From Bryoerythrophyllum caledonicum (Eukaryota > Streptophyta > Bryopsida > Pottiales > Pottiaceae): a stretch of 64,000 nt of DNA. The notes under the pieces are model-generated. The model was not told where the DNA came from and ran no database searches. It saw only the letters and a list, made by a program, of their open reading frames with translations. The DNA lies in the NCBI GenBank assembly GCA_963971425.1, contig OZ020514.1, positions 42,259,158 through 42,323,157 of the forward strand. The letters are read 5' to 3'. This document shows positions 15,175-48,158 of this stretch, piece after piece; position 1 is the first letter of the stretch; the number at the start of each line of letters is the position of its first letter. Made by a program: the position numbers and the translations under genes.

Positions 15175-17059
15175 CTACATTGCGCACACGAACTCGCCGC
15201 TACTGTCCACGTCGGGGTCCACGTCTGCATCGTCGTTCATGTCCATGTCATCGATCGGGTCACCGAAGTAGTGGCCCGTCCCAGCGCCCGGCACGCGTGC
15301 CTCGCTGATGATGCGCATGATTTCCTCAATGCTCTGCGGCGGGTGGCTCGGGTCCTCAAAGTCGTAGCTCCGGTCCGCCAGGTCCACCAGATCTGCCGGA
15401 AGGTTCTTCAGAAACCACTCATGGTTCTTGATCTCCAGGATATTGATCCTCTGCGCACTCACACAAAGCGTTAGCTCGGGCCACTGCCCCGGAGACGACT
15501 GGGTCACACCAAAAAAATGCGGAGCTGTACCTTCGCCGGGTTGGCCACGAAGATCCGCGACAGCAGATGCCTGCACTCCACAGAGATGTGCACATAGTCG
15601 GGGATTGAGTACTGCACGCTCAGGATGCGCTGCAACCACGCCAATGACGGTGTCAGTAATCTGATTGAGCGCCACAAAATAACTACGCATGGCCACCGAA
15701 TAACAGTCGTGACATCTACTTACCCCGATGGTCTTCCTAAAGTTCCTGGGGTCCTCGGGATCCTCGAAGGGATACGCTCCCACCAACATCACGTACAGAG
15801 TCACTCCACACGACCAAACATCCGCGATCTGCATTCCGGAACGGTTCATACGCATCAGTCAACTAGTCCCTCACTCGCCTCGGAGAAGCACTTACGTAAT
15901 CGTTTGCTCTAGCAGCAGATCTCACCTTGCCATCGTACTCTTTTTTCGACAGCACCTCAGGGGCAATGTACGCAGGCGTTCCCACTGTTGACTTCGGCTG
16001 TGAGTGCAAGAGAGATGACTGCAATCATGTGGGAAAAAACCACAGGCGTCAGTTCCAACGCCAAATCAAATCAAACAGCAAAGCGGAGTAGATGGCCCAG
16101 GGACACGCTAACACCTTAGAGTAACCGAAGTCGCAAATCTTCAGCCTGGGTGCGGGACTTCCATCAAGCAAAGTGTTCTCAAGCTTCAGATCCCGATGGC
16201 AGATTTGCTGCAAAGCAACGATCCAGTCAGTAAACATCACAAACAACAAGACAAGATTGTGACTCAAGTCAATAAAAGGATGCTCGGAAAGAGAGAAAAA
16301 CATACAAACTGTCACAACATGAAAGACCGGCCCAAAATTCAATGACATACCATGGAGTGGCAGTAACTGACTCCCGAAATCAGCTGCTGGAAGAAGAACC
16401 TCGCCTGCACATCACCAAACTCCTCACAATCACAAAACACCTCCTAATATTCACCTCTATCAAACCGACACATTAACAACAAAATATTCTCACCAACCGA
16501 AACTGAACACACACCTCATCCTCGCTGAATCGCCCCGCGTTGCAAATCCGTTCAAACAGCTCCCCACCCGCGGCATACTCCATCACAATCGCCAAGTGTG
16601 TCGGCGTCAACATCACCTGCCAAACCAAACCTTCAGCACTGAACCAAGCTCAAAATATCGCCCACAACAGAACCCAAAACAGCAGCCACTGAACCCTCCA
16701 ATCCACCCTAAAGATCAGCTAGGTGTCCCACACGCACCTCCTTGAACCGCACGATATTGGGGTGGCGCAGCGAGCGGTGGTTGATTATCTCCCGCTGCAC
16801 ATTCTCGTCGATCTGCAAACACACACAGACGCCCCTCCCCGTGAGTAACAAAGTCCAGCCCCAGACAACCCCCACGAATATATCAGCAACAGCAGCACCA
16901 GCGCACCTTCTCCCCGCGCTCGATGTACTTCACAGCGACGAGCTCGCGCGTGAGCTTGTCGCGCATGAGGCGTGCGACCCCAAAATTGCCCGAGCCAATG
17001 TCCTTGACGAGCTCGTAGCGGTCGTGTTCATGCATACTGGGGATGTCCAGATGATCCAT
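15175..17059 (-). CDS. SnRK2-type Ser/Thr protein kinase, group III (OST1-like), nine exons
   Basis: Spliced minus-strand gene, exons 17059-16907, 16812-16738, 16616-16515, 16404-16351, 16207-16115, 16018-15926, 15828-15724, 15629-15531 and 15450-15175. All introns are GT-AG, 80-143 bp, and phase 0. The product is 349 residues, close to the roughly 360 usual for the family. Visible features: glycine loop GSGNFGVA (22-29), ATP Lys44, catalytic HRDLKLEN (Asp134), DFG (154-156), activation loop with Ser165, Ser169 and Thr170, the positions phosphorylated in OST1, then GTPAYIAPE. The C-terminus has the SnRK2 box ([12 protein letters not shown]) and the acidic domain II ending [10 protein letters not shown], the part that binds PP2C in ABA-responsive members. 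By family knowledge it should act in osmotic-stress or ABA-type signalling in cytosol and nucleus. ATG 17059 was chosen because it is the first ATG upstream of [10 protein letters not shown] in frame. One oddity: KTI-G replaces KTI-Q at the exon 7 junction. The only intact host gene in the window. Confidence 0.95.
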
Positions 17060-23140: not shown

Positions 23141-24342
23141 GTTCGATTTATGTGAATCTTGCTATACATGAAGCAACTAGGAATTCACACGTTTGTGAAA
23201 CCAGGGTTTTGGAAGCTCCTTAGATGAGGCTTCAACAACGACTTGGAGTAAACTCGACTAAGGTTGTGATGAATTGTTCCTAATGGATTTTGGAGATTTC
23301 GTGCTAGTAAGTTCCTAGCCTTATTTTTCAGGTAAGTTCCTAGTCTTATTTATTTGAACCATAATATCAAAATTAAAAAGGACAAAGAATTTAAAACTTA
23401 AACATGTATTCCAAAATAGAGAAACAACAAAACCAAAAAATAAGGTATTAATATTAAGAAAACAAAAGCAAAGGTGTTAGGGTGAATGCTAGTCAACAAG
23501 TAACTTTAAGCTATAGTAAGCTAATCTAAATCACTAGGTGACATCTAAACTAGTGTGAGGTGCAACTCACTCAATAGGACGACTAAGAAAGCAGGTGGCA
23601 AAAAAAGGACTGCAGGACCATGACATGATATCGACAACTGGGAATGGACGAGAGGTGAGACGGAGGACAAGAGGATCCTCGATCATTATGTGGCCATCCA
23701 AGAGATGACCGGATATAGAAGGAGCTGGCAAGACAACCCAACCAAGTCAATACTAGAAGACATGCACTTTGAATGGATGGTGATCAAAGGGGCAGAGGTC
23801 CACGAGGTTTAGGGAATAAAATCCAACAAAAGAAACAAATGCATTTCGCGAAAAGAGCACAGAGAAAACTAAAAGGAAAACATTCTAGGCGGAATTAGCT
23901 TAGCTCAATGGAAAGAGTAGCCCAAGGATCAAACACTTTGAATGTAAATCATATAAAGGTATTTGCGGCGGATTTCTCCAGAACCTATCATGGAGGTACA
24001 TCACCCGGAAAGGGACCACCATGTGGCCTACCTGAGTTGTAGTGGAGTCAGTGGCAAGAAGTCGAAGACGGCGGACGATCACTAGTGATAGCAAAGGGAG
24101 ATCTTGCCATGGAAGAAAGAGAACTGGTTTTCCAATCGGACTCGGTTGACAATGTCGAAAGCATAAGGGTGTATTTTATGTGGGTCTTTAATTTGCCACC
24201 AATCCCAAAAGGCAACCGTACATTGGTTAAGCAACATGTGAGTATAGACACCATGAGGAGGAAGCTTGAAGAAGACAAGGCAATCAAGTACGGGCTGTCA
24301 CGGGACGTGGCGTCGAGGGTCTCTCCGTATCGTAGATTTTAG
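23141..24342 (+). other. Unassigned interval with one short open frame
   Basis: Mostly no recognisable gene. The frame 24085-24342 encodes FNLPPIPKGNRTLVKQHVSI and ends with EDKAIKYGLSRDVASRV; it reads like a real but unidentified protein piece that stops where the leader of the retrotransposon begins, so it may be a host or transposon gene truncated by the insertion. At 23888-23915 there is a short tRNA D-arm-like word. Confidence 0.3.
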
Positions 24343-24619
24343 CGTAGATTAGTTTGTTACTAATCTACGTGTGTTTAGGGACGAACGGCGGCGCACCGTT
24401 TTCATCCGTGGATGATTTTCATCCACTCAGGGTTGTTTGCGTGTGCGTATAGCGCCGCACACGTCCTTGACTTGACGTCTTTGTCAAGTCAAGCTTTGGG
24501 AGTGTGTTTAGAGAGTGATTAGTGAGTCCTTGCTTGTTAGTGATGGTTTGTCATTAGTAAAGACTCTACATTCTCTAGTTCCACTCGCACTCGTTGATTC
24601 TTCCTTCGTGGAGTGCGAG
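24343..24619. other. Cluster of perfect hairpins in the retrotransposon leader or LTR
   Basis: Five perfect inverted repeats in 277 bases: 24343-24353 with 24359-24369 (arm CGTAGATTAGT), 24408-24415 with 24419-24426 (arm GTGGATGA), 24440-24447 with 24456-24463 (arm CGTGTGCG), 24466-24476 with 24483-24493 (arm CTTGACTTGAC), and 24584-24592 with 24611-24619 (arm CTCGCACTC). Loops are 3-18 nt. They lie between the presumed element start and Gag. Confidence 0.85.
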
Positions 24620-25887
24620 ACGCTTGACTACTTGTGATTCATACATCTTTCACTTGACAAAGACCCTCCCACGTTTCTTGCTATAGTTCTCAAATTTGAC
24701 ATTGAGTGATTTGAAAAAAATTGTGGGTACTTTGAATTTATGAATAGAGCGCGTGGAGACGGAGCCAACGCCACCGACCGCGCCCAAATCGGACGATTTT
24801 TGGAGAAGTTGTGGAGATTGGAAGTTGTGGAGCAAGAAGTTCTGGAGTTTCTGGAGTTTCAGCAGTTTCATCCAATTTGCGATTTCTCATCCATTGTCGA
24901 CGCTTCATCCGCTGCGCACGACTTCATCCATCCGGAGCAGTTTTCATCCGGGTACGCATATGCACAAGGGTCGCAATTCCGTTAGGGACCCTAAACCGTG
25001 CCGAAGTTCCCAATTCCGTTAGTTTGAGTGCTGAAATTTCAGGGAGTCTCTGGAATGAACACTTAAAATTTCAACTTTTGGAGTTTTACATATTTTTTGA
25101 TTCTAATTGCGGATTTGAGTTCGCAAGGAAATTCTAAGACTAATGTTGTAAAGAAATTTTAGTTTACAAAAAAAAAAATATTTGGGGAGTTTTTGGGACG
25201 TCCAAAAACAATCACATGTTATGTGATCTTTTAAAAAAAAAAAAAAAGATAGTGCTAAACTTTGGGAGTAGATTTCAAAGGCATTGTCACTCGGATGTAA
25301 GTGACATTTATGCTTATAGTTAGGGTTTCCGCCATTTGACCTAATTTTAGCATTAGTTTGGCGTTTGTCGTGATTATCTACCAATGTATGTGATTTCATT
25401 GGATGGATAGTGTTTTTAAACACCACGGTCAATCTCCACTACTCCCTTAGTTTTAGACGTTAGGAGGGAACACTTTCAGTGTTTCTCTTTGATTTGCAGG
25501 TTTTGCGACTTTGAGGCATCCACTGCAGGCGTGTGCCAGTGGCGCTGTCTCTTTCATTTTCCTGCTTTTATGTTGTTGGGGGAGAGGATCCGGTTTTGAT
25601 TTCTGGATTCTTGTGCGGTACCTCCCCCATGTTGCGGGCTTGTTGCCGGTGTTTTCCGGTGGCCCCATTTCTTGTTGTTCCAGTTTGTGATAGGGTACCG
25701 TAGGGGTGAAGTCGGATTTATGGCCGGCAAGACCTTTCTATGTCGGGGGATGTGGTTGGACCTGTGGTAGCCGGAGGTGATGACCGGTGATCCACACAGC
25801 TTGGTGATTTTGCAGGTGCAGGTTGCCCGTTCGTACCCTTACCCTTTAGATAGTACCCGTAGATAGATCCCGAGGTGGTTTTTGTTT

Positions 25888-28662
25888 ATGGTGAGTACCC
25901 GGAGTCGGTATTACCGCTCTCCCTCACCAAACCAGTCGGAGAGTGCTTCCACCACAGACTTTGGGCCAGGGTCGGATACCGACGAGGCTTTTGAGCCTGT
26001 TTCGGCGTTGGATACCGACCGTAGGCTTCGAGTCTGGAGTGTGGGCATGTTTGACGACATGGAGGACGATCACCGTCATGTCGTACGAGACAGGTTCTCG
26101 GGACGGGCTAGGGGCATCTCCCTACCCGATTGGCGTCTCCGATTCCAAACTTGGATGAAGGAGAAGCGCCAGCGGACGCCGTCGTTCAACGATTGGTACG
26201 CGTTCGAGCTTTTGCCCTAGCATTTGGAGTTGGAGGCACTTCAGACATATGGGAGGTGGACCACGCAGCACAAGGCAGAATTGCGCCCGGTTGAGGAGTA
26301 TTGGCGCCAGCGTGTGGAGTTGGTCACTGCACTCAAGGAGAGTGCGGTTGCCCAACTCTCGACTTCCACCGAGGAGCCCATGGAAGAGGAGAGTTTCCTC
26401 GGTGAGGAGTCCAAGGGCAAGGGTGTTGCCATTGTGGGCGAACGAGCTGGCATGAGGGCCATGTCTCGTTTGGCCGTAGCCACACGTGCAGCATTGGTGG
26501 CGGTTGGCAACCCGCCAGCCTTCGATCCTTTGGCGCAGTTCATGGCGCATCTGGAGGTGGAGTACGGGGGGTTGCGGCGCGATCAGATGCACCGCATCCA
26601 GGACTTCCGCCGTGAGAAGGAAGACACGCCACCCACCATGTACACACGGTTGGCACTGTTGGCGGCGGAGGCTGGTGATGTCTTTACGGAGCGCCAACTT
26701 GTGAAGATTTTTATCTCCAAGCTCGACAAGCGGATGGTAGAGTTGATCAGTCCGCATTTGCTCTTCCGGTACCACGGCAACGCGACCTTGGCTCAGGCGT
26801 TCGCCGAGGTGGAAGCGCTTGACCGGGCGTTGGGTGTGAGGGAGGCCACAGACTTGGTCACTTCGCTCACGGATGCTCCGAAGCCCAAGAAGCTTGCTAC
26901 GGCGACTGGTAGCTTGGCAGAAGCACAACCTGAAAAGGTTGTGCATTGTTGGGCTTGTGGAGAGGCCGGTCACACCAAGGGGGACCCCAATTGTCCGAAG
27001 AAGAAGGAGGCAGTGGCGAGGAAGGCCAAGCCCAAGACCGAGGCGGCCAAGCTTACGGAGAAGACTGGGAGCAAGGGGAAGAAGCCTGTGACATGCTCTC
27101 ACTGTGGCAAGCCTGGCCACAGTGATGAGAACTGCTTTTCTCTTCACCCAGAGAAGCGCCCAGGATCTTCGGCTGTTGGATCGGATGCCGTGAAGTCACT
27201 TCAATCCGAATTGGCGGAGTTGAAGAAGCAGATGAGCGCGATGGCTTCTTTGGGGCAAGTGGTAGAAACACGGCCTGTGGTGACGGGTCAGGGCTCATCT
27301 TCAGCCTTAGATCGCTACTTGTATGGCGCTTCGGGGGAGGTGGTGGCAGCGGTTGCCACTCGTGCTCAGACCATTACACAGGCGGTGGCACCCTCTTCCA
27401 CTCTGCCGGGTAGTAGCGGTCGTTCACGCCATGCGGGTTTGCCGGACCACATTGGTCAGTCCCGACTACCTCTGTCGTTCAGCATCGCGGATGCGACTAC
27501 TTCTACTGCCGCTCCCACTTCGATTCCGGTCCCACCGGTTTCTTCCAGTCCTGGAGATGCTGTACATACCTTGGCGTATAAGGTGTTGCAATTGCCGGTG
27601 TTTGCTGGTGTGGACTTTCTCACACCGGATTTTCAACCATCCGGTATATTCCATTTGGCGGGTAGTATGTTGGAAGGCAAGGTGCCCATTCCGTCGTTGG
27701 AGGTGTCACAGGCAGTGACCGCTCCACCCATTGAGGAGGATTTGGTGGCAATGCGGGCCAAGTTGGCCGCGGAGGCTATTTCCGCGTTTGAGGCCAATGC
27801 CACTTCCACACCTATGGAGCAGTCGTCCAGGGATCGGGCCTTGATCTCTGGAGTGGATTATTTGTCTGACGTTGCAGCCCGGTCGGCACGGGAGCGACGC
27901 AGTGTGCGTCCAGGGGTGGTACGTTTGGTGAATGACGATGGAGTCATGGTGGTAGGCCGTACGGATGGCAACTCCACTCGAGCTACCTCCCTACGTGTTA
28001 TGTTGGACTCTGGGGCTCAGCCAGTGATGATTGGCAAGCAGCTAGCCCATGATTTGGGTCTAGGTGCTTTGGACCTCGAGCCTTGTCCATTCACGATTGT
28101 TACATCGGTTGGGGGCACGGAGAAGGCCATGGGCTACACCCGACATCCGTTGCAGTTGATGTTTGGCGTGGGATCTGGTCCATTATTCTCCCATGTCTCC
28201 CTTCAGTGCGTTGTTACTGGCGCCACCAACTACGATATTTTGGTGGGCCAACAGGCACTATATCCACTTGGATTTGGGGTGGATAACTGGACGGAGGAGG
28301 CCTGGATTAGGCCAGGGTGGTCTGCCGGTGATGGCAGGAAGGAGCTCATCCCCGTAGTCTTCGCAGCTAGCGCGGTGACTTCGACGACAGATGCTATGTT
28401 TGGGTGTAGTGCTCTGGCATCAGACTTGCCGTGTGCTTCTTCACTTTTGGAGGAGACATATGCATTTATGTCTGTGGTGGAGGATTCACGCGAGCATCCA
28501 CCATTGGCGATCCCTGCCCGTCATTGCAAGGATCCGCTTCCGCCGTGGGGGACACCGTTGGAGCTCACTTGTCGTAGTGGAGAGATCGTGCATGCTCTTG
28601 ATGCTCCACTGCCTTCAGTGGACTCTTCCACTCCGTTGTTGGCTCGTACTATTCAGTGGTGA
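25888..28662 (+). CDS. Gag-protease polyprotein of the Ty3/gypsy element, with one in-frame TAG
   Basis: ATG 25888 is the first ATG of a frame running to TGA 28660-28662, interrupted once by TAG at 26218-26220. The N-terminus is Ser/Asp-rich. A retrotransposon capsid-like region covers about residues 195-330 (FDPLAQFMAHLEVEYGG and following). Two CCHC zinc knuckles follow: CWACGEAGHTKGDPNC (from residue 354; six rather than four residues before the last Cys) and CSHCGKPGHSDENC (from 403). A long Ser/Pro/Thr-rich linker leads to the aspartic protease: LRVMLDSGAQPVMIGKQLA, with DSGA Asp near residue 707, then YDILVGQQAL. Gag packages the RNA; the protease cuts the polyprotein. The TAG may be a mutation or a readthrough site; the surrounding frame is otherwise intact over 900 codons. 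The same frame continues past the TGA into the methyltransferase. Confidence 0.88.
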
Positions 28663-29898
28663 CCACCGGATGAGGGTATTATCCTTGTGGAGTTATTTGC
28701 CGGTATCGGTACGGGGCTCGCGGTTGTGTTGGAGGCCGGGCTCAAGGTACGACGGTATATCCACGTGGATAGTGGCTTTGCAGCCAACCGTGCCGCTCAC
28801 CATCACATTCAGCGTCTTCTGGCGTTGTATCCAGAGCAGTTACCATCTTCTGCGATTCGAGGGTGTTTTGGCAAGTTGCCACGTGATGTGACGTTGATCA
28901 GTGAGGATGATCTTCGCCGGTTAGGTCACGTGGACTTGGTGATTGCCGGATGGCCTTGCCAAGGCCATTCACGGGCGGGAAGTGGACGTGGCTTGGATGA
29001 TCCACGGTCGGGTCTCTTTGCGGATTTGCTCAGGCTCGTCCAGTGGTGGATTACCCACCAATCGACACCACCGGGGTACATTTTTGAGAATGTACCCCCA
29101 TTGGGGGATACACGGACGAAAGTGCGTGAGGATGGGGCGTACATCCATCACCTTCTTGGTCCCCCTACGTTTGTTGATGCCGCAGCGTTGGGATCTTACG
29201 CCCATCGGCCACGTTGGATTTGGACCAACATGGCATCATCCACAACGTTCACTTCTGCACTTGCTCAAGTGCAACGGCCCGTGCGCCGTGAGGTCGATGA
29301 CATTTTAGACGACCACCGTGTTTCCACGGAGGTTACGAAGGATGATGAGCCACCATTGGCGGTGGTCAACCGCGTTGGTTTCACTCGGGGGGCATTTCCC
29401 ACTTTGATGTGCTATCCAGGCTCTTTTGCCTTCAGGTCACGCGGTCCGGGCATGGTTTGGGATTCTTCTTCCCAAACTTTCGAGGAGCCTTCTGTCGATG
29501 AGAGGGAGCGGGCGATGGGCTTTTTGACAGGCACCACCGCCGCACCGGATATCTCTGAGGGCCAACGCCGTTATTTGTTGGGTCAAGCCATTGACCTCAA
29601 CACCCTTGTTTGGATATGTGGCCTCTGTTTCGCCGCTCAACGCCGTTCGAGTGACCATCCACGCGTGCTGGGGGCAGACTCTGATGGTCAGGGGGCAGCG
29701 ATGCCACATCGCACAGAGATCGAGGAAGCGGAGTTGCTTTTTCGTTTGAAGAGGCATGCAGCTGAAGAGCTTCGTGCTCAGCGTGTCTTTGCAGGCTTGG
29801 CAGAGGACTTTGAACGTGAGGATGCCCCCACTGCAGGCTTGGCAGAGGACTTTGAACGTGACGATGCTCCCATTTGGCCTCAAGAACGCACCCGCTGA
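28663..29898 (+). CDS. C5-cytosine DNA methyltransferase within the retrotransposon
   Basis: In the same frame as Gag-protease, after TGA 28660-28662. No ATG lies near the domain start, so translation probably needs passage of that TGA. Motifs in order: [11 protein letters not shown] (28690-28719), [16 protein letters not shown] with catalytic Cys at 28957-28959, VI IFENVPP (about 29080), [13 protein letters not shown] (about 29203), [12 protein letters not shown] (about 29390), then ERAMGFLTG (about 29508) and [17 protein letters not shown] (29569-29616). All motifs needed for cytosine-5 methylation are present. The GTGL of motif I and the length (about 410 codons) recall the Dnmt3/DRM branch, by eye only. 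The expected role is methylation of DNA, possibly of the element's own copies. The C-terminal 90 residues are Glu/Arg-rich and end in a duplicated 14-residue unit fused to reverse transcriptase sequence. It occupies the place where the first part of reverse transcriptase should be. Confidence 0.92.
29791..29874. repeat. Tandem duplication of a 42-bp coding unit
   Basis: 29791-29832 and 29833-29874 differ at only a few bases; each encodes AGLAEDFER(E/D)DAP. The second copy leads directly into the reverse transcriptase motif, one frame over. Confidence 0.95.
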
Positions 29899-30166
29899 GT
29901 TTCAGAGGGTGATGGACCGGGTGTTGACCGGTTTACCGTTTGCCCGATGCTACATTGATGATGTTATCATTTTTAGTAGCAGCCCATAGGAGCATGTGAG
30001 GCATCTTCAGGCGGTGTTTGAGAGGTTACGGCAGTGGGGATTGCGCTTGCACCATGGCAAATGCAAATTCTTCCATGACCGGTTGCCATACTTGGGACAT
30101 ATGATTGTTCCAGGAGGTCTTGGCGTGCAGCAGGCGAAGGTTGACGCGCTGCAGAAGATTCCAGCC
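29869..30166 (+). pseudogene. Reverse transcriptase, central fragment
   Basis: In frame 2, one frame away from the methyltransferase, the sequence reads [20 protein letters not shown] and then [10 protein letters not shown], the catalytic YxDD motif of Ty3/gypsy reverse transcriptase. A stop (TAG 29987-29989) interrupts it; beyond, HLQAVFERLRQWGLRL, KCKFF and LPYLGHMI follow (palm and thumb). The first roughly 140 residues of the domain, including the first catalytic Asp region, are absent. The end joins near 30166 to late RNase H sequence, so about 150 further residues (connection and the start of RNase H) are missing. A functional enzyme cannot be made from this copy. Confidence 0.9.
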
Positions 30167-32012
30167 TAAACTGAATTTTAGGCCCTATTTGTATGGGCAG
30201 CGTTTTACTTTGGTGACCGACCACCAGCCTTTGAAGTGGCTCATGGAGTCTGACAAGCTTACTGGCAAGCTTGCCAGGTGGGCTTTGTTGCTCCAGGAGT
30301 ATGATTTTGAGGTTGTACACCGGGCGGGCATCACGAACTTGGATGCGGATGGTCTATCTCGCAATCCAAGTCCATCGGAGGAGGATTTGACTGGTGCCAG
30401 GTGGCATGGGGACTGTGACAGGGAGTCAGTCCCGGGGTGGCATGCAGCAGCCTACCTCACATTGATGTCTGGATCCACATCGACGTTGCCTGATATGGCA
30501 GCGGATGAGGAACCAGACAAGGCCCAGGTTGTTAGCGACGTGTGGGAAGACGTTCCAGTCTTGCACAAGCTGCAACATGGCACACTTCCGCCCGCTCTTT
30601 CGGCCATGGAGCGCGATCGAGTTGGACACCGGATAGCGAGGTTCCGTTGGGAGAACGGCCTTCTATTTCGGTTGTGGCCGGATGGAACTAGGCGCATAGT
30701 TCCCAGACCGGATCAGAGGGCTTCGTTGGTACGACAAGTACACGAAGACCTTGGTCATTTTGGTGTGCGGCGGACTCATTCGATGTTGCGCAGTCAATAT
30801 TGGTGGACCGGCATGTATCAGCAGGTGGCCATGTACGTTTCACGGTGTGAAGTCTGTGATCGGGTCAGATCCAGCTTCAACACATTGTCACCACAGTTGC
30901 AGCCTTTGCCCATCATGGGTTTGGGCTACCGTTGGTCTCTGGATTTTGCTGGGCCACTTGTTGTCACCCCACGTGGAGCCAAGTACGTGTTGGTGATGGT
31001 GGAGCACTTCAGCAAGTGGATTGAGCTTGTGGCATTACCACAGAACTCCTCGGAGTCGGCGGCCATGGCATTCCTTGACCGGGTGCTCGCTCGTTTTGGA
31101 GCCCCAGCTGAGGTGTTGACTGACCTAGGGCGTGAGTTCCTTGGTGCTTTCGAGGCTTTGTGCACCAAGGCTTTGATTGACCACCGTACGACTTCTAGAG
31201 ATCATCCGGAAGCGGATGGTTTGGCGGAGCGTGTGGTTCAGACCGTTAAGCGTGGACTACGGAAGTATGGATTACTTCAGGGTGGCCACCGTGATTGGGA
31301 TCTGATGATACCATGGATCGCCATGGGATACCGGTTTAGCCGGCAGGCCTCTTTGGCCGCTTTCAGTCCGTATCAGTTGTTGTACGGACGGGAGCCGATT
31401 CTACCCAGTTCTGTACGGGAGAAGTTGGCCCCAGTTGTGGACTTGGATGATCCAGAGGTCTGGATCCAGTGTCTGCGTGACCGAGCGGAGTTCTTCAAGC
31501 GGGCCATGCCAATGGCCATGGAGAATTTATCCATCGCTCAGCACCGCGATACATTACGGTACGCTCGCATTCGCAGCGGCGCTTATCGACCTCAGTTGCG
31601 GCGTTTCTCCACTGGAGATTACGTTTATTTGCAACGTGAGGCGCCTACGACGTTAGATGTCAAGGCCGGGCCCACCATTCTTCGTGTGAAGGATGTGTTG
31701 CCCAGTGGCATCTTGTTGCTGGAAGGCAAAGATGGCCGGGAGTGTCGGGAGCACTCCAAGAACTGCGCGCCCTGCCATTTGCCCATTGATGGCTCCGTGC
31801 ATCTTGAGTTGGCCGTTGTGCCACAGGGTCTTCCGTGTTTTGTGTGTGGTGAGAAGAAGGGTGCGGCTACTATGTTGCTTTGTGACCATTGCCAGCGTGG
31901 TTGGCATATGGCTTGCTTGACGCCGCCTCTCTCTACTCTACCGTCCGGGGATTGGACTTGCCCTCGTTGTCGGAGGTCTTCGAGTCACGTTTCACCCGAT
32001 GAAACGGCTTGA
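30165..32012 (+). CDS. RNase H remnant, integrase and C-terminal PHD finger
   Basis: Frame 3, open from the deletion junction to TGA 32010-32012. It begins in the last part of RNase H (RPYLYGQRFTLVTDHQPLKW, then LLQEYDFEVVHRAG). The integrase zinc domain has HEDLGHFGVRRTH and CEVCDRV (about 30739-30865). The catalytic core has Asp in SLDFAGPL (30942), Asp in LTDLGREF (31122) and Glu in DGLAERVV (31227), the D,D-35-E triad. GDYVYLQR (about 31615) marks the C-terminal DNA-binding region. From 31835 to about 31970 a PHD finger follows: CFVCGEKKG, LLCDHCQRGWHMAC, then WTCPRCR, a complete Cys4-His-Cys3 set. PHD fingers usually bind histone H3 tails, so this end could steer integration towards particular chromatin. 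The integrase-PHD part is uninterrupted, unlike the reverse transcriptase. Confidence 0.92.
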   Translation, partial: PKLNFRPYLYGQRFTLVTDHQPLKWLMESDKLTGKLARWALLLQEYDFEVVHRAGITNLDADGLSRNPSPSEEDLTGARWHGDCDRESVPGWHAAAYLTLMSGSTSTLPDMAADEEPDKAQVVSDVWEDVPVLHKLQHGTLPPALSAMERDRVGHRIARFRWENGLLFRLWPDGTRRIVPRPDQRASLVRQVHEDLGHFGVRRTHSMLRSQYWWTGMYQQVAMYVSRCEVCDRVRSSFNTLSPQLQPLPIMGLGYRWSLDFAGPLVVTPRGAKYVLVMVEHFSKWIELVALPQNSSESAAMAFLDRVLARFGAPAEVLTDLGREFLGAFEALCTKALIDHRTTSRDHPEADGLAERVVQTVKRGLRKYGLLQGGHRDWDLMIPWIAMGYRFSRQASLAAFSPYQLLYGREPILPSSVREKLAPVVDLDDPEVWIQCLRDRAEFFKRAMPMAMENLSIAQHRDTLRYARIRSGAYRPQLRRFSTGDYVYLQREAPTTLDVKAGPTILRVKDVLPSGILLLEGKDGRECREHSKNCAPCHLPIDGSVHLELAVVPQGLPCFVCGEKKGAATMLLCDHCQRGWHMACLTPPLSTLPSGDWTCPRCRRSSSHVSPDETA

Positions 32013-32315
32013 ATTCCTTATAGACTTGTCATTGTGTGGTGCGTTGCCATCCAGTTGGAGTTCCTGGTTTCGGTTCAGGGATAGGCAACGTGGAGATTGA
32101 CCAAGGGATTGGCAATAAAATTGCCTAAGGCGATTAAAGATGGGGCTCACATTGCACCCGGCCTACCATCTCTTTGTTACTTCTTCATATGCTTATTGAT
32201 TCGATGACGGCGACATCTTTGGCTGGATGCGTACAGTTGTTGCAGCGACATCACCGTGGCGTTTAGTCTTATTAGTGTTGTTTGGTCCTAGCTGGATAGA
32301 GGGTCTCTTTATCCG

Positions 32316-32331
32316 CTAGGGGGGGCACTTG
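32316..32331 (+). promoter_or_regulatory. Candidate polypurine tract
   Basis: GCTAGGGGGGGCAC lies about 300 bases after the integrase stop and just before a TTGAGGGTG that may open the 3' LTR. Position and composition fit the plus-strand primer of Ty3/gypsy elements. Confidence 0.55.
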
Positions 32332-32340
32332 AGGGTGTAT

Positions 32341-33870
32341 TACGTATACTTGTTTTAGTGTATGTTTTTCGTTTATTTGATGTTGGTTAGGACTCTCGAT
32401 CTGTTGTGGTTATCGATCTTTCTTTACACGACAGGGCCTCACCTAGGTCGTTTACCTCTTGGCCCTCTTCCGACTGACCCATTCTATCTACGACAATCAA
32501 CACCTCTACTGGTTGGCAAAATGGACATGGTGGAGTAGCACTAAATGTTGAAGGCCTTCAAGGCTCAACAACTCGTTGAAAAGGAAACACAACATCGATG
32601 GGCAAGCAACAACCTCTACCGTAACCAAATGATTGAACTTAACAGTGCTTTAGCACGTGGCGGACGCAATTGGGGTCTATCTAAAGCAAATCCATACCTC
32701 ATAGATGTCATGGGGTCTCTTAAGAATCAAGACCACGGGACCAAATGGCAAGAAGCGTTGAGGCAACGCCTTGAGGACTAGCGTTGCCACGCGTTCCAAC
32801 ACGAGGATGAAAGGAAATGGCAACAAGCAAATGCGATTCCCAATAGAAAACAATGTTCCTGGGGTTGTCAAGGCTGCAAGGTGCCGTGTTTTCTAAGAGG
32901 TCGGGCTTTTGTTGGATAGTGGCGGCAGAAGCCCAAATTTAGTTTGACATTGCATCAAAGGTGTTCTTGTAATAGGCAAAACGCGCGGATGTCACCGTGG
33001 ATAGACATGTTTGGTAGGACGTTGAAACAACCATGGTCACGTCTGAGTGCAACGTCGTAGAAAATGCAGGAGGTCCACATCTGCCGCCGCGTTCATTTTT
33101 ATTGTGAGATGACTCCAGATCGTTGACAAGAAGCAAAATACTAAGAAAATGGATTAATGAAAACATCACGAAATATGTGTATGAAAATGTCACTACAAAC
33201 ATGTGGGGTTATCCAAATGATGTTGCCTATGACATTGGTGTACACATTTATAATGTGTACACCAAGTCATGCTCAACAGTACTACCGTGGAGGACCGCCA
33301 TGCACATTTCTACTATGTTGCGTCTCCTTGCTGTTACATGGAAGCCTCTCTTGCTAGTGGAATGTATATGACACCATCTGCGATTGCCTCCCTCAGTGGC
33401 TCCGTGACCAACATTTTCGGTTGTAAATCAGCAAAGTGCTCTCATTTTGCACATCAGCTATAGAAGAGATGGATTTAAGTAAGAGGATGGACATCATCTA
33501 AGGACAAATTATCTTACATTCATAGTAGATGAAATTTGTCGTAGAGAAGGAAGAGTCGAAGGGCGACTTATACCAAAGCGACCTCCACATCATCCACATT
33601 TTACGATTAAAAGTGTGGGTGAGAGCAAACTGAACTTACGATTTTGCCATGGAGCGGTGAGGACAGAGCTAGCTACGAGCAAAGAGGGAGACATGCGGCA
33701 GATCAAGATGGCAAGGGGAGAGCTTAGAAGAAAGAAGCACAAGGGCAAGAGGAGGGATGGCCATTGCCAGCTAACCCTAGCGATAGTTGACCTCAGCCAT
33801 GGCAAAAAATCCCTAGCCATAGCAGACATAGTGTTCGCCACCGTAGAGAGGTTGCAGGAGTAGCAAAAGC
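32341..33870 (+). other. Unidentified open frames after the retrotransposon
   Basis: 32545-32781 encodes 78 residues rich in Gln, Arg and Leu (RWASNNLYRNQMIELNSALA). 33147-33371 encodes WINENITKYVYENVTTNMWG and continues to KPLLLVECI; 33615-33863 encodes a Lys/Arg-rich frame (RGELRRKKHKGKRRDGHCQL). These read smoothly enough to be decayed coding sequence, but I recognise no domain and cannot join them into one gene. The start of the block may include the retrotransposon's 3' LTR. Confidence 0.25.
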
Positions 33871-45776: not shown

Positions 45777-48158
45777 CTAGTACGATGGAGGCGGATAATG
45801 ACATCGTTGTCCAGTGGATGGAAAGTCTTCTGTATACTCCTCCCCCAATGTACCATCCATATTGTATTCATCCACCATAGATGGAGCATATCTAAATAGT
45901 GGCCAAAATCCCTCTCGTAGAGAAAGCAATTCTTCCAATGGCACCTCAAAGCAGCCTTTACACCCTCCAATAGTACATAATATGCTCATTCTTCCTCCTC
46001 TATTCACCCAAGAGATCCTTATTTACCGTAGATTCACAGAGACTTAGAAACCCAGAAATACCCTTCATCACCTTGTCATAATTCTCATGACGATGCAGAA
46101 TGAGAGGAAGCGGTTGTCCATGAGGCAATATTGGCCTACCATTTGCCGTCATTTTCCACAACTGAATTCCTCCATTATCTTTGGGCAATCAATCCTTATG
46201 TGTACAAAGAATTTTGTACTCTATCTTTGGCAAACCATCAAAGTCCTTGTAAAACTTGAATTGTTGGCCCTTCATATGACCTGTAAGGGCCTCATTGCCT
46301 ATGCACAAATATCCATCAAGAAAGCCCTTGAAGTCGAGCACCTCTTCAATGAGATGTGGTATATCTAGCTTCTCTTTGCAATCTATGAATGACTTCATCA
46401 AGAGTGGGATCGTTGGATAGCCATTTGACTAAAGTTTGGTATTCCATCTCCAAAACATTGCATCAATATCTTCGTAAGTCTGACCAAGAAGTAAGAAGTT
46501 CATGTATAATTCCACAAAAATACCCATATGAACAAGGAGGGAGAAGAAAGCAAACACAAATCTATTCTTACTATCTCCTGTGGCACTATCCAGTTGCATT
46601 TGTAGAATTGGTGGTAATTGTTTCACATGATTGAGTTCAATGGGTGGAGCGGCAAGGGATCCAAGGGACACATTAGCATCCGCAAGCACAACCTCAGAGA
46701 GAGGAAAAACTCTCCTTGCAAATAATTCATGAGAAGAATACACCGGTAGACTCTCTAAATCCTGAAGTAACTTTGCAATGGATCCAACTGTGTGATTCGA
46801 GTCGGTAGGGAAGATGTCAAGACTATAAGGCGCATAGTTGACATCTCCATGCCCATGCGCAATCATTCCAGTCACAGCCACATGGAGTTTCATGAAGGAA
46901 TCTGTTCCTTTATTCTTGTGAGAAAAATGGCGAAATGTTGTTTTGCTGTGATCCATTTTATCATGGATGATGCAATCAATGTCATGTGGTCTATCCTCCG
47001 AGTTCTTCCGGTTCCCACTATCTAAAATACGATGAATCAACTGGAAGCATGATGCAACTTCAATTTGGTATCCCACATTACATATGCGGAGGATCCTTGC
47101 GTAGTGGCCTTTTTCAATTGCTTCAATTGGTCGCATTTATTGCATTGAGCAAAGTTGTCACCAAGTTTCTTAGTAGAATATTGTTCAAATTCAAAGCTTC
47201 AAATTCGACTAAGACCAGACAAGGATATTGGTTTGAGGCCAAATCTTGCATTCACCTCATTTACTTTGGGCAACACTGCACTCTATTGAAAGGGGAGGGA
47301 AGATGTTTGGAGACAACCTTCTTCCCTATGCCAAGTGTAGTAGTCTTGTTAGGACTACTATCAACAGCATCATCAACTAGGTCATGCAACGTAGCAATTG
47401 CTTGGAGGATATGGGTGCAAGGCTTCTCAATACCAGAATTGTTGTATGCCATCCCTTGCACTTCATCCTTCGCATCACTTCTGTATCGGTAGAATGTCGC
47501 TTGGCTGACCCCCATGATTGTACACCATGCATCTTGGCATACATCAATTCCATCGAGCATCACCACATGGTTGCCATTGGAATCAATTTGTATTTGCCTA
47601 TGCACATCAAGTAAAATATGTTTCTGAAAGTATACACCTCCAATGTCATTGTGACCCTATGTTTGAAGTACAGAAATTGAACACTTTGGAAATCTTGGAC
47701 AACAAACAACGCTTGCAACAAGGTTGATCAATTGTGCAAAAAGGAGTAGTTCCTTCTTTGGTGGAAAAGGCAGCACTCGTCTATCACGATTGCTTTCATA
47801 TTGTCGAACATCAATTCCTAGACTCCCTATAAAATACCTTGAGAGCGGCATTGTAAATGCTAGTTTGCTTTTGGTCGTACAAATTCACATTACGAAGAAA
47901 GACCTCTTAAGTTGGCAATGCTCGGAGAGCAAACATCCAATTCAAAAGAATATCATACTCATTTAAGGATTGAGCAATCAGAACTGCAACATGATCATCT
48001 CCAAGTGGCCGGCCTCCAGTTTCAGGAATTAAAGTGGAATTAACACTCTGATATAGTCCGATTCCAATATAATTTCGTGATGTGTTTCTAAGGTTAACAC
48101 GCTTTGAAAACGAGACCGTGCAAGGAATACCTTCACAAGCAACAACATCGAAAGGCAA
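45777..48158 (-). pseudogene. DUF7869-like gene family, copy A, broken
   Basis: Segments in order on the minus strand: 48158-47907 (contains LGDDHVAVLIAQSLNE), 47851-47657, 47605-47261 (VCQDAWCTIMGVSQATFYRY, a short DNA-binding-like helix pair), 47136-46429 and 46401-45777. The long segment has IIHDKMDHSKTTF, VTGMIAHGHGDV, DSNHTVGSIAKLL, then LDSATGDSKNRFV and LLGQTYEDIDAMF. The last two match, imperfectly, the LDNCxxENKNxxV and VGHTHEDID patterns of DUF7869-type proteins, which are thought to have an RNase-H-like fold and are common in large repeat families. After 46188 come SRPNRDFCPFWIALA-like remnants. Introns, stops and frameshifts are mixed. All parts recur in the same order in copy B at 56-60 kb. 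P2 palindromes lie directly 5'. Confidence 0.5.

Follow-up and report, generated by a model that had tools for sequence, protein, structure and literature searches.

A DNMT3-type methyltransferase encoded ahead of a leaky-type stop codon in moss Ty3/gypsy retrotransposons with split repeats and a PHD-finger integrase

The DNA analysed here (the window) is a 64,000-nucleotide stretch of the genome of the moss Bryoerythrophyllum caledonicum (assembly GCA_963971425.1, contig OZ020514.1, positions 42,259,158 to 42,323,157 of the forward strand). It contains a Ty3/gypsy retrotransposon copy at 24296-32433, between 4-bp GGGC duplications, with borders set by comparison with ten sibling copies (Table 1). 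An initial annotation, made from the sequence alone, had proposed a C5-cytosine methyltransferase in one frame with Gag and protease, placed between protease and reverse transcriptase (RT) of a Ty3/gypsy polyprotein. This was confirmed: both Pfam and the profile search identify a C5-methyltransferase, and Gag, protease, RT-RNase H (RH) and a DDE integrase (PF00665) are present in Ty3/gypsy order. The polyprotein of the window copy, however, is not intact as had been supposed, having two in-frame stops in ORF1 and two internal deletions affecting RT and RNase H, and the copy is dead. The annotation also overlooked three features described below, a PHD finger, split repeats and a putative self-primer site. 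Rfam gave no match in the window at gathering scores.

A profile search of the same genome yielded 103 scored matches including the window's own, i.e. at least 102 further copies. The methyltransferase is thus indeed carried by the element, as annotated, but is not a lone instance of capture and belongs to a large family. The ten siblings (L031-L050), nine of which were chosen because they have a 1353-codon frame and the tenth because it scores high, are 9.1-10.0 kb long and share one layout: repeat A1 (357-359 bp), 5′ leader, ORF1, TAG, in-frame ORF2, polypurine tract (PPT), repeat B1 (106 bp), the dinucleotide GC, A2 (356-358 bp) and B2 (106 bp). The 1353 codons of ORF1 encode Gag, two zinc-knuckle motifs, protease and the methyltransferase, and ORF2 encodes RT, RNase H, an H2C2-DDE integrase and a PHD finger. 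Element termini are TGT...ACA, flanked by 4-bp duplications in eight of the ten siblings (all except copies 0 and 8). Within a copy, A1 and A2 are nearly identical (0-4 substitutions in nine siblings, 10 in one), and therefore most of these insertions are young. Directly downstream of sibling copy 0 lies an older second methyltransferase element, about 79-83% identical (L032:4714-7886). That methyltransferase and Gag are joined by assembly error or chance has practically no probability left and, as an objection to the annotation, is refuted by the 103 scored matches, the 4-bp duplications and the occurrence of relatives in named plants and across several collections.

From sequence comparison it is almost certain that the family consists of methyltransferase-bearing Ty3/gypsy elements with a DNMT3-type enzyme. 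The catalytic domain is nearest to DNMT3 in both profile and solved-structure comparison; DRM is also kin and Dnmt2 faintly so, in agreement with the annotated DNMT3 kinship. Animal DNMT3A and DNMT3B have the catalytic fold and motifs in common with the window methyltransferase, but also have PWWP/ADD domains, neither of which Pfam detects in the window protein. Across the DNMT3 family PCN in motif IV is the rule. DNMT3A conforms to it, whereas the window methyltransferase reads PCQ, and at least two of the 40 rows of a sister clade, in which the methyltransferase lies before the integrase (see below), read ECN. Pooled pairwise dN/dS among siblings was 0.158 for the N-terminal part of Gag, 0.376 for the zinc-linker region, 0.208 for protease, 0.162 for the methyltransferase and 0.65 for the ORF1 tail (ten copies), and 0.07 for RT-RH, 0.19 for integrase, 0.06 for the subsequent stretch and 0.65, based on few substitutions, for PHD (seven copies). 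Three copies with shifted frames were left out for ORF2, and two of the seven kept have one and three stops, at which codons were skipped. Since the methyltransferase value is close to that of Gag, the domain is constrained about as strictly and, judging from these ratios, is under purifying selection, even though the choice of copies with long frames or high scores biases dN/dS downward. Host methylation silences transposons, and a methyltransferase that is carried by an element and kept by selection calls for an explanation.

The ORF1 stop reads TAG-CAA-TCA in 28 of 29 sibling loci and TAA-CAA-TCA in the remaining one, and RT continues in frame beyond it. A second family in the same genome, inspected at five loci, is represented by L052, where the methyltransferase lies in a 1371-codon open frame and is 69-81% identical to P0017, P0018, P0020 and their kin; the methyltransferases of these three are 50-51% identical to that of the window. 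Its ORF1 stop is TAG-CAA-CCA in all four further loci, and the flanking residues differ from those of the first family. UAG-CAR-YYA is a readthrough signal of plant viruses (Type I leaky stop), and the ORF1 stops of both families match it, with in-frame continuation. We therefore hold with good confidence that the stop is leaky. The methyltransferase (METHYLTRANSFERASE) would then be made as a Gag-level product and RT-integrase as a minor readthrough product, because the former is encoded ahead of the leaky-type stop. Accordingly, in the siblings, which place the stop between methyltransferase and RT, the methyltransferase would belong to the Gag-protease product and not to Pol. This arrangement makes a sharp prediction, namely, a Gag-level dose of the enzyme and its action within the particle.

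The profile search with the methyltransferase retrieved 151 proteins, and among the 120 listed are P0066 and P0078 of Marchantia polymorpha, P0059 and P0067 of Calypogeia fissa and P0075 of Sphagnum troendelagicum. The proposed green-lineage affiliation holds, and through Marchantia and Sphagnum the family reaches laboratory plants. By eye, zinc-knuckle and protease motifs precede the methyltransferase in P0066 and P0078, and protease motifs do so in P0075, while Pfam detects only the methyltransferase in all three. No methyltransferase of Klebsormidium nitens is named among the matches listed, only integrase proteins. IMG/VR produced no relatives (eight pattern matches, none confirmed). One NCBI protein filed under a bacterial metagenome-assembled genome (P0005, Candidatus Obscuribacterales) is 75% identical to the window methyltransferase and probably reflects plant sequence that was assigned to a bacterial bin.

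A search with the sibling integrase-PHD region retrieved 283 proteins, and the 120 listed include representatives of K. nitens, Volvox reticuliferus and Haematococcus lacustris. PHD is present in 115 of these 120 and a methyltransferase (DNMT) in the same ORF in 43, where it lies either before the integrase (INT; 40 proteins, 14 with the complete RT-RH-DNMT-INT-PHD order and 26 cut short upstream) or before RT (three). In the integrase tree (69 of the 120 listed relatives plus one sibling, 70 rows in all), a 100/96 branch separates 33 before-integrase rows, together with four rows without DNMT in the ORF, from the window type; rows lacking DNMT in that ORF include window-type elements, theirs lying upstream of the stop. 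In the methyltransferase tree (46 rows: 32 of the 43 same-ORF proteins, 13 others and the window), which has no host DNMT3 rows and is not rooted by host genes, position splits on a single 100/99 branch. P0034, without the motif, was left out of a tree. The two methyltransferase positions fit a deep split in both trees. Volvox and Haematococcus fall on the before-integrase side, K. nitens P0132, which has PHD, on the window side and K. nitens P0233 basal to the former, a species split that rests on few named records. No methyltransferase is present in the recovered ORFs of P0132, P0233 and the Haematococcus protein, and Volvox P0167 has a weak, long-branched match (86 bits).

The clean split by position in the methyltransferase tree, and a nearly clean one in the integrase tree, could also mean two separate captures, with donors related to each other, instead of a single capture and a subsequent move. 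Motif IV, GWPCQGHS in one group and often GWECQDLS in the other, points the same way. However, the profile of the other clade gives 225-366 bits with 23 of 25 before-integrase proteins, compared to 77 bits with DNMT3A, the exceptions being P0167 (86 bits) and P0172 (split into 52 and 88). Two captures are accordingly possible, if somewhat doubtful. The motif IV proline is usually fixed, and GWECQ replaces GWPCQ in at least 15 of the 40 before-integrase rows; the active-site Cys and Glu stay. A plain motif search had suggested loss of catalytic residues in this clade, but the alignment columns show that they are kept: 33 of the 34 rows with a letter at the position have the Cys, and 34 of 36 have the Glu. 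In the wider set, the catalytic Cys follows IAGWP in 89 of the 92 fetched relatives that show the motif (125 fetched). Such retention makes it improbable that the domain has become a structural piece of Gag whose enzyme activity is small or absent, even though it is encoded with Gag ahead of the stop and the structure model has a long low-confidence C-terminal helix.

The closest solved relatives of the PHD finger are those of PHF12, CHD4, KDM5, PHF21A, UHRF1 and ATXR5, and several of these proteins recognise unmodified H3 tails. By analogy, the PHD might steer the integrase to chromatin lacking H3K4 methylation, for which we see the case as evenly balanced. Pfam detects no chromodomain in the window element; in chromoviruses, a chromodomain occupies the integrase C-terminus, where the window lineage has PHD.

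Instead of two identical flanking long terminal repeats (LTRs), all ten siblings have split repeats, A1...B1-GC-A2-B2, and a full B-GC-A unit is implied as the cDNA repeat. In the window, 13 nt located 181 bp into A are complementary to bases starting at the last base of A1 (Table 1). Complementarity amounts to at least 13 nt in nine of ten siblings and 10 nt in copy 8, whereas 300 shuffles reach at most 10. The pair very likely represents a Tf1-type self-priming arrangement. If reverse transcription starts at the A1 edge and the plus strand at the PPT before B1, the cDNA repeat would be B-GC-A and the cDNA would run from CTTGAGG... to ...ATCTTTC. The A2|B2 joint reads ATCTTTC|CTTGAGG in eight siblings, lies at the corresponding place in copy 7 and has an extra C in copy 0; in nine of ten siblings it lies at the predicted primer site. 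Because its sequence matches the predicted cDNA ends, the joint coincides with joined cDNA ends. At B1-GC-A2, in turn, terminal ACA and TGT meet in a 10-bp palindrome, GACAGCTGTC, which the integrase may recut. Joined-end, permuted integration is modestly favoured by these sequence features.

The A-coding-B-A-B layout is shared with DIRS/PAT elements, and the accessible part of PMC5890265 ascribes a DIRS repeat structure to the Klebsormidium element, so that split repeats might instead arise via DIRS-like single-stranded circles closed on a B-A template. DIRS/PAT elements use a tyrosine recombinase, whereas the window type encodes a DDE integrase, has TGT...ACA termini flanked by 4-bp duplications and has its A2|B2 joint just where the predicted cDNA ends would meet. 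A DIRS-like route is therefore rather unlikely.

Across the genome the B-GC-A joint occurs 227 times (reversed control, 0) and the PPT-B joint 342 times (control, 0). Of the exact PPT-B places 100 were listed, 40 of them on contigs C1-C3, and a B-GC-A joint (at most one mismatch) was listed beside 23 of these 40. Among the 17 unpaired places seven were inspected (the window and six others): four have a diverged A2 and three, including the window, end after B. Such single-B copies could reflect later recombination or integration of a one-repeat circle. One unpaired PPT-B site, L061, has a longer, different B-A2 linker than the usual GC.

The explanation that best accommodates these data, and which we regard as reasonably probable as a whole, is that of a PHD-integrase Ty3/gypsy lineage with a DNMT3-type enzyme that would work as follows. 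Ribosomes would mostly terminate after the methyltransferase and at times read through UAG-CAR-YYA, and the enzyme would enter particles at the Gag level. The 5′ end of the RNA itself would serve as the primer at the A1 edge, and the resulting cDNA would have B-GC-A repeats. The cDNA ends would be joined, and the DDE integrase would recut at the ACA-GC-TGT joint within the repeat, producing a permuted insertion. The methyltransferase would methylate the element cDNA either ahead of integration or as it happens, and the PHD would steer the integrase to H3K4-unmethylated chromatin, where new copies would land quietly. We know of no description of joined-end/recut integration for DDE elements. 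That one green clade combines the DDE joined-end/recut route, a Gag-level DNMT3-type enzyme methylating cDNA, an H3K4me0-guiding PHD and a single capture before the streptophyte/chlorophyte divergence with a later move between two polyprotein sites is, as a package, unlikely.

Several points count against the proposed explanation. The support is at the level of sequence, with expression, methylation and enzyme activity all predicted. Further in-frame stops occur in RT of 12 of the 29 sibling loci (467 codons inspected), the dN/dS values have the downward bias mentioned above, and that of the PHD reaches 0.65 on a short stretch. A two-repeat circle has two GC sites, but all ten siblings show the product of just one, and the A2|B2 joint may have been passed on instead of newly made. 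Host plants methylate transposons at CG, CHG and CHH. Singleton C-to-T changes per site per copy at 30 loci (CG 0.0081, CHG 0.0066, CHH 0.0033; A-to-G/T-to-C 0.0010) show a CG/CHG excess that is no proof of self-methylation, because host methylation predicts the same. Moreover, the element is not CpG-depleted relative to its surroundings (observed/expected 0.85 versus 0.67 in the rest of the window).

That the enzyme acts on the element's own cDNA may be as readily true as false. The absence of CpG depletion and of any tie between enzyme and cDNA would also suit a methyltransferase acting on host chromatin or RNA, for example by damping host defence or marking particle RNA. This alternative is unlikely, though, given the kinship to DNMT3 and DRM and only faintly to Dnmt2, and the de novo CG methylation by retrotransposon DNMTs (accessible part of PMC5890265).

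Among known systems, Tf1/Sushi and Tcn1 Ty3 elements have a chromodomain, no methyltransferase and an ordinary LTR layout. Like the window type, they are predicted to self-prime instead of using a tRNA primer, according to the accessible part of PMC6317226. The same source gives an NCGN insertion preference for Phygy, the moss gypsy of REXdb; none of nine target duplications (eight siblings and the window) fits it. The charophyte and dinoflagellate precedents invoked by the initial annotation are real. According to PMC5890265 (de Mendoza 2018), LINE and DIRS elements of Symbiodinium carry methyltransferases, as does a gypsy element of Klebsormidium whose repeats are DIRS-like; PMC12344493 repeats the occurrence of methyltransferase-bearing retrotransposons in streptophytes and dinoflagellates. 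KnitGypsy-Dnmt3 of K. nitens shares with the window type the Ty3/gypsy affiliation, Dnmt3-type enzyme, DIRS-like repeats and purifying selection; by description, to which the comparison is confined, its methyltransferase is in the Pol ORF, whereas that of the window type is upstream of the stop preceding RT. Two K. nitens proteins, P0132 (integrase-PHD) and P0233, are related to the window-family integrase. SymbioDIRS-Dnmt3 and SymbioLINE-Dnmt are likewise retrotransposons with a methyltransferase, with two domain orders coexisting, but are tyrosine-recombinase or LINE elements and separate captures (PMC5890265, accessible part). PHD does not occur in the main text of PMC5890265, and its accessible part, in which no search was aimed at either feature, describes neither a leaky stop nor a self-primer for KnitGypsy-Dnmt3. 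Moss methyltransferase-bearing elements are not mentioned in the accessible parts of PMC10538959, PMC6317226 and PMC9033089. Searches of the open-licence literature turned up no description of bryophyte or chlorophyte members, the PHD, the leaky stop or the joint, a weak negative that covers mostly titles and abstract openings. The kind of element is therefore known; within that coverage, new relative to 2018 are the leaky-type stop after the methyltransferase, the PHD, the fit of the repeat joint and the two positions. That a gypsy element has DIRS-like repeats was an oddity in 2018; the match of joint and primer site now suggests an integration mechanism that can be tested.

Table 1. Parts of the Ty3/gypsy copy in the window (window coordinates)
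Feature	Position	Strand	Remark
Left target-site duplication GGGC	24292-24295		identical 4 nt at 32434-32437
Repeat A1 (5′ terminal, starts TGTCAC)	24296-24652	+	matches sibling A2 at ~97.5-99% in 9/10, 91% in copy 7
Predicted transcript 5′ end, putative self-primer	24477-24489	+	13 nt complementary to 24652-24664
Predicted primer-binding site, inner A1 edge	24652-24664	+	complementary to 24477-24489
Gag, first part, up to in-frame stop 26218-26220	25888-26217	+	open in 9/10 siblings
Gag with zinc-knuckle motifs and aspartic protease, up to in-frame stop 28660-28662	26221-28659	+	motifs, Pfam
Zinc-knuckle motifs	26944-26973, 27094-27120	+	Pfam E 0.022, under curated cut-off
Aspartic protease, DSGA at 28000-28020	~27988-28158	+	Pfam E 5.5e-4, under curated cut-off
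DNMT3-type C5-cytosine methyltransferase	28687-29895 (catalytic part ~28687-29700)	+	profile and structure-relative comparison, Pfam
42-bp tandem duplication and deletion joint	29790-29872	+	~720 bp of sibling sequence gone, including leaky-type stop and N-terminal RT
RT remnant, then second deletion joint	29873-30174	+	~390 bp of sibling sequence gone
RNase H remnant and DDE integrase	30175-31835	+	H2C2 ~30708-30872, core ~30927-31208 (Pfam)
PHD finger, integrase C-terminus	31836-31970	+	PF00628 E 1e-10
Polypurine tract	32316-32327	+	adjoins B1 in 10 siblings
Repeat B (3′ terminal, ending ACGACA)	32328-32433	+	no subsequent GC-A2-B2 in window copy
Right target-site duplication GGGC	32434-32437		pairs with 24292-24295

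Among 58 PF00504 matches in the genome, one LHCII gene has its best scores with 7xqp and 8htu, both of Physcomitrium, following a match in two stretches to 9vfj, as would suit a moss. Elsewhere in the genome, a single-ORF methyltransferase of 370 residues (L053, G000:C14:16016358-16017317) matches PF00145 over positions 3-322 of 324 with 218 bits and has no stop. It looks bacterial in type, which would mean transfer into a plant chromosome or contamination. Outside the element, the window contains, on the minus strand, an ORF matching DUF7869 (46429-47133; PF25273, E 3.6e-27) and a weak protein-kinase fragment under the Pfam cut-off (15175-15855), the latter in a GC-richer stretch.
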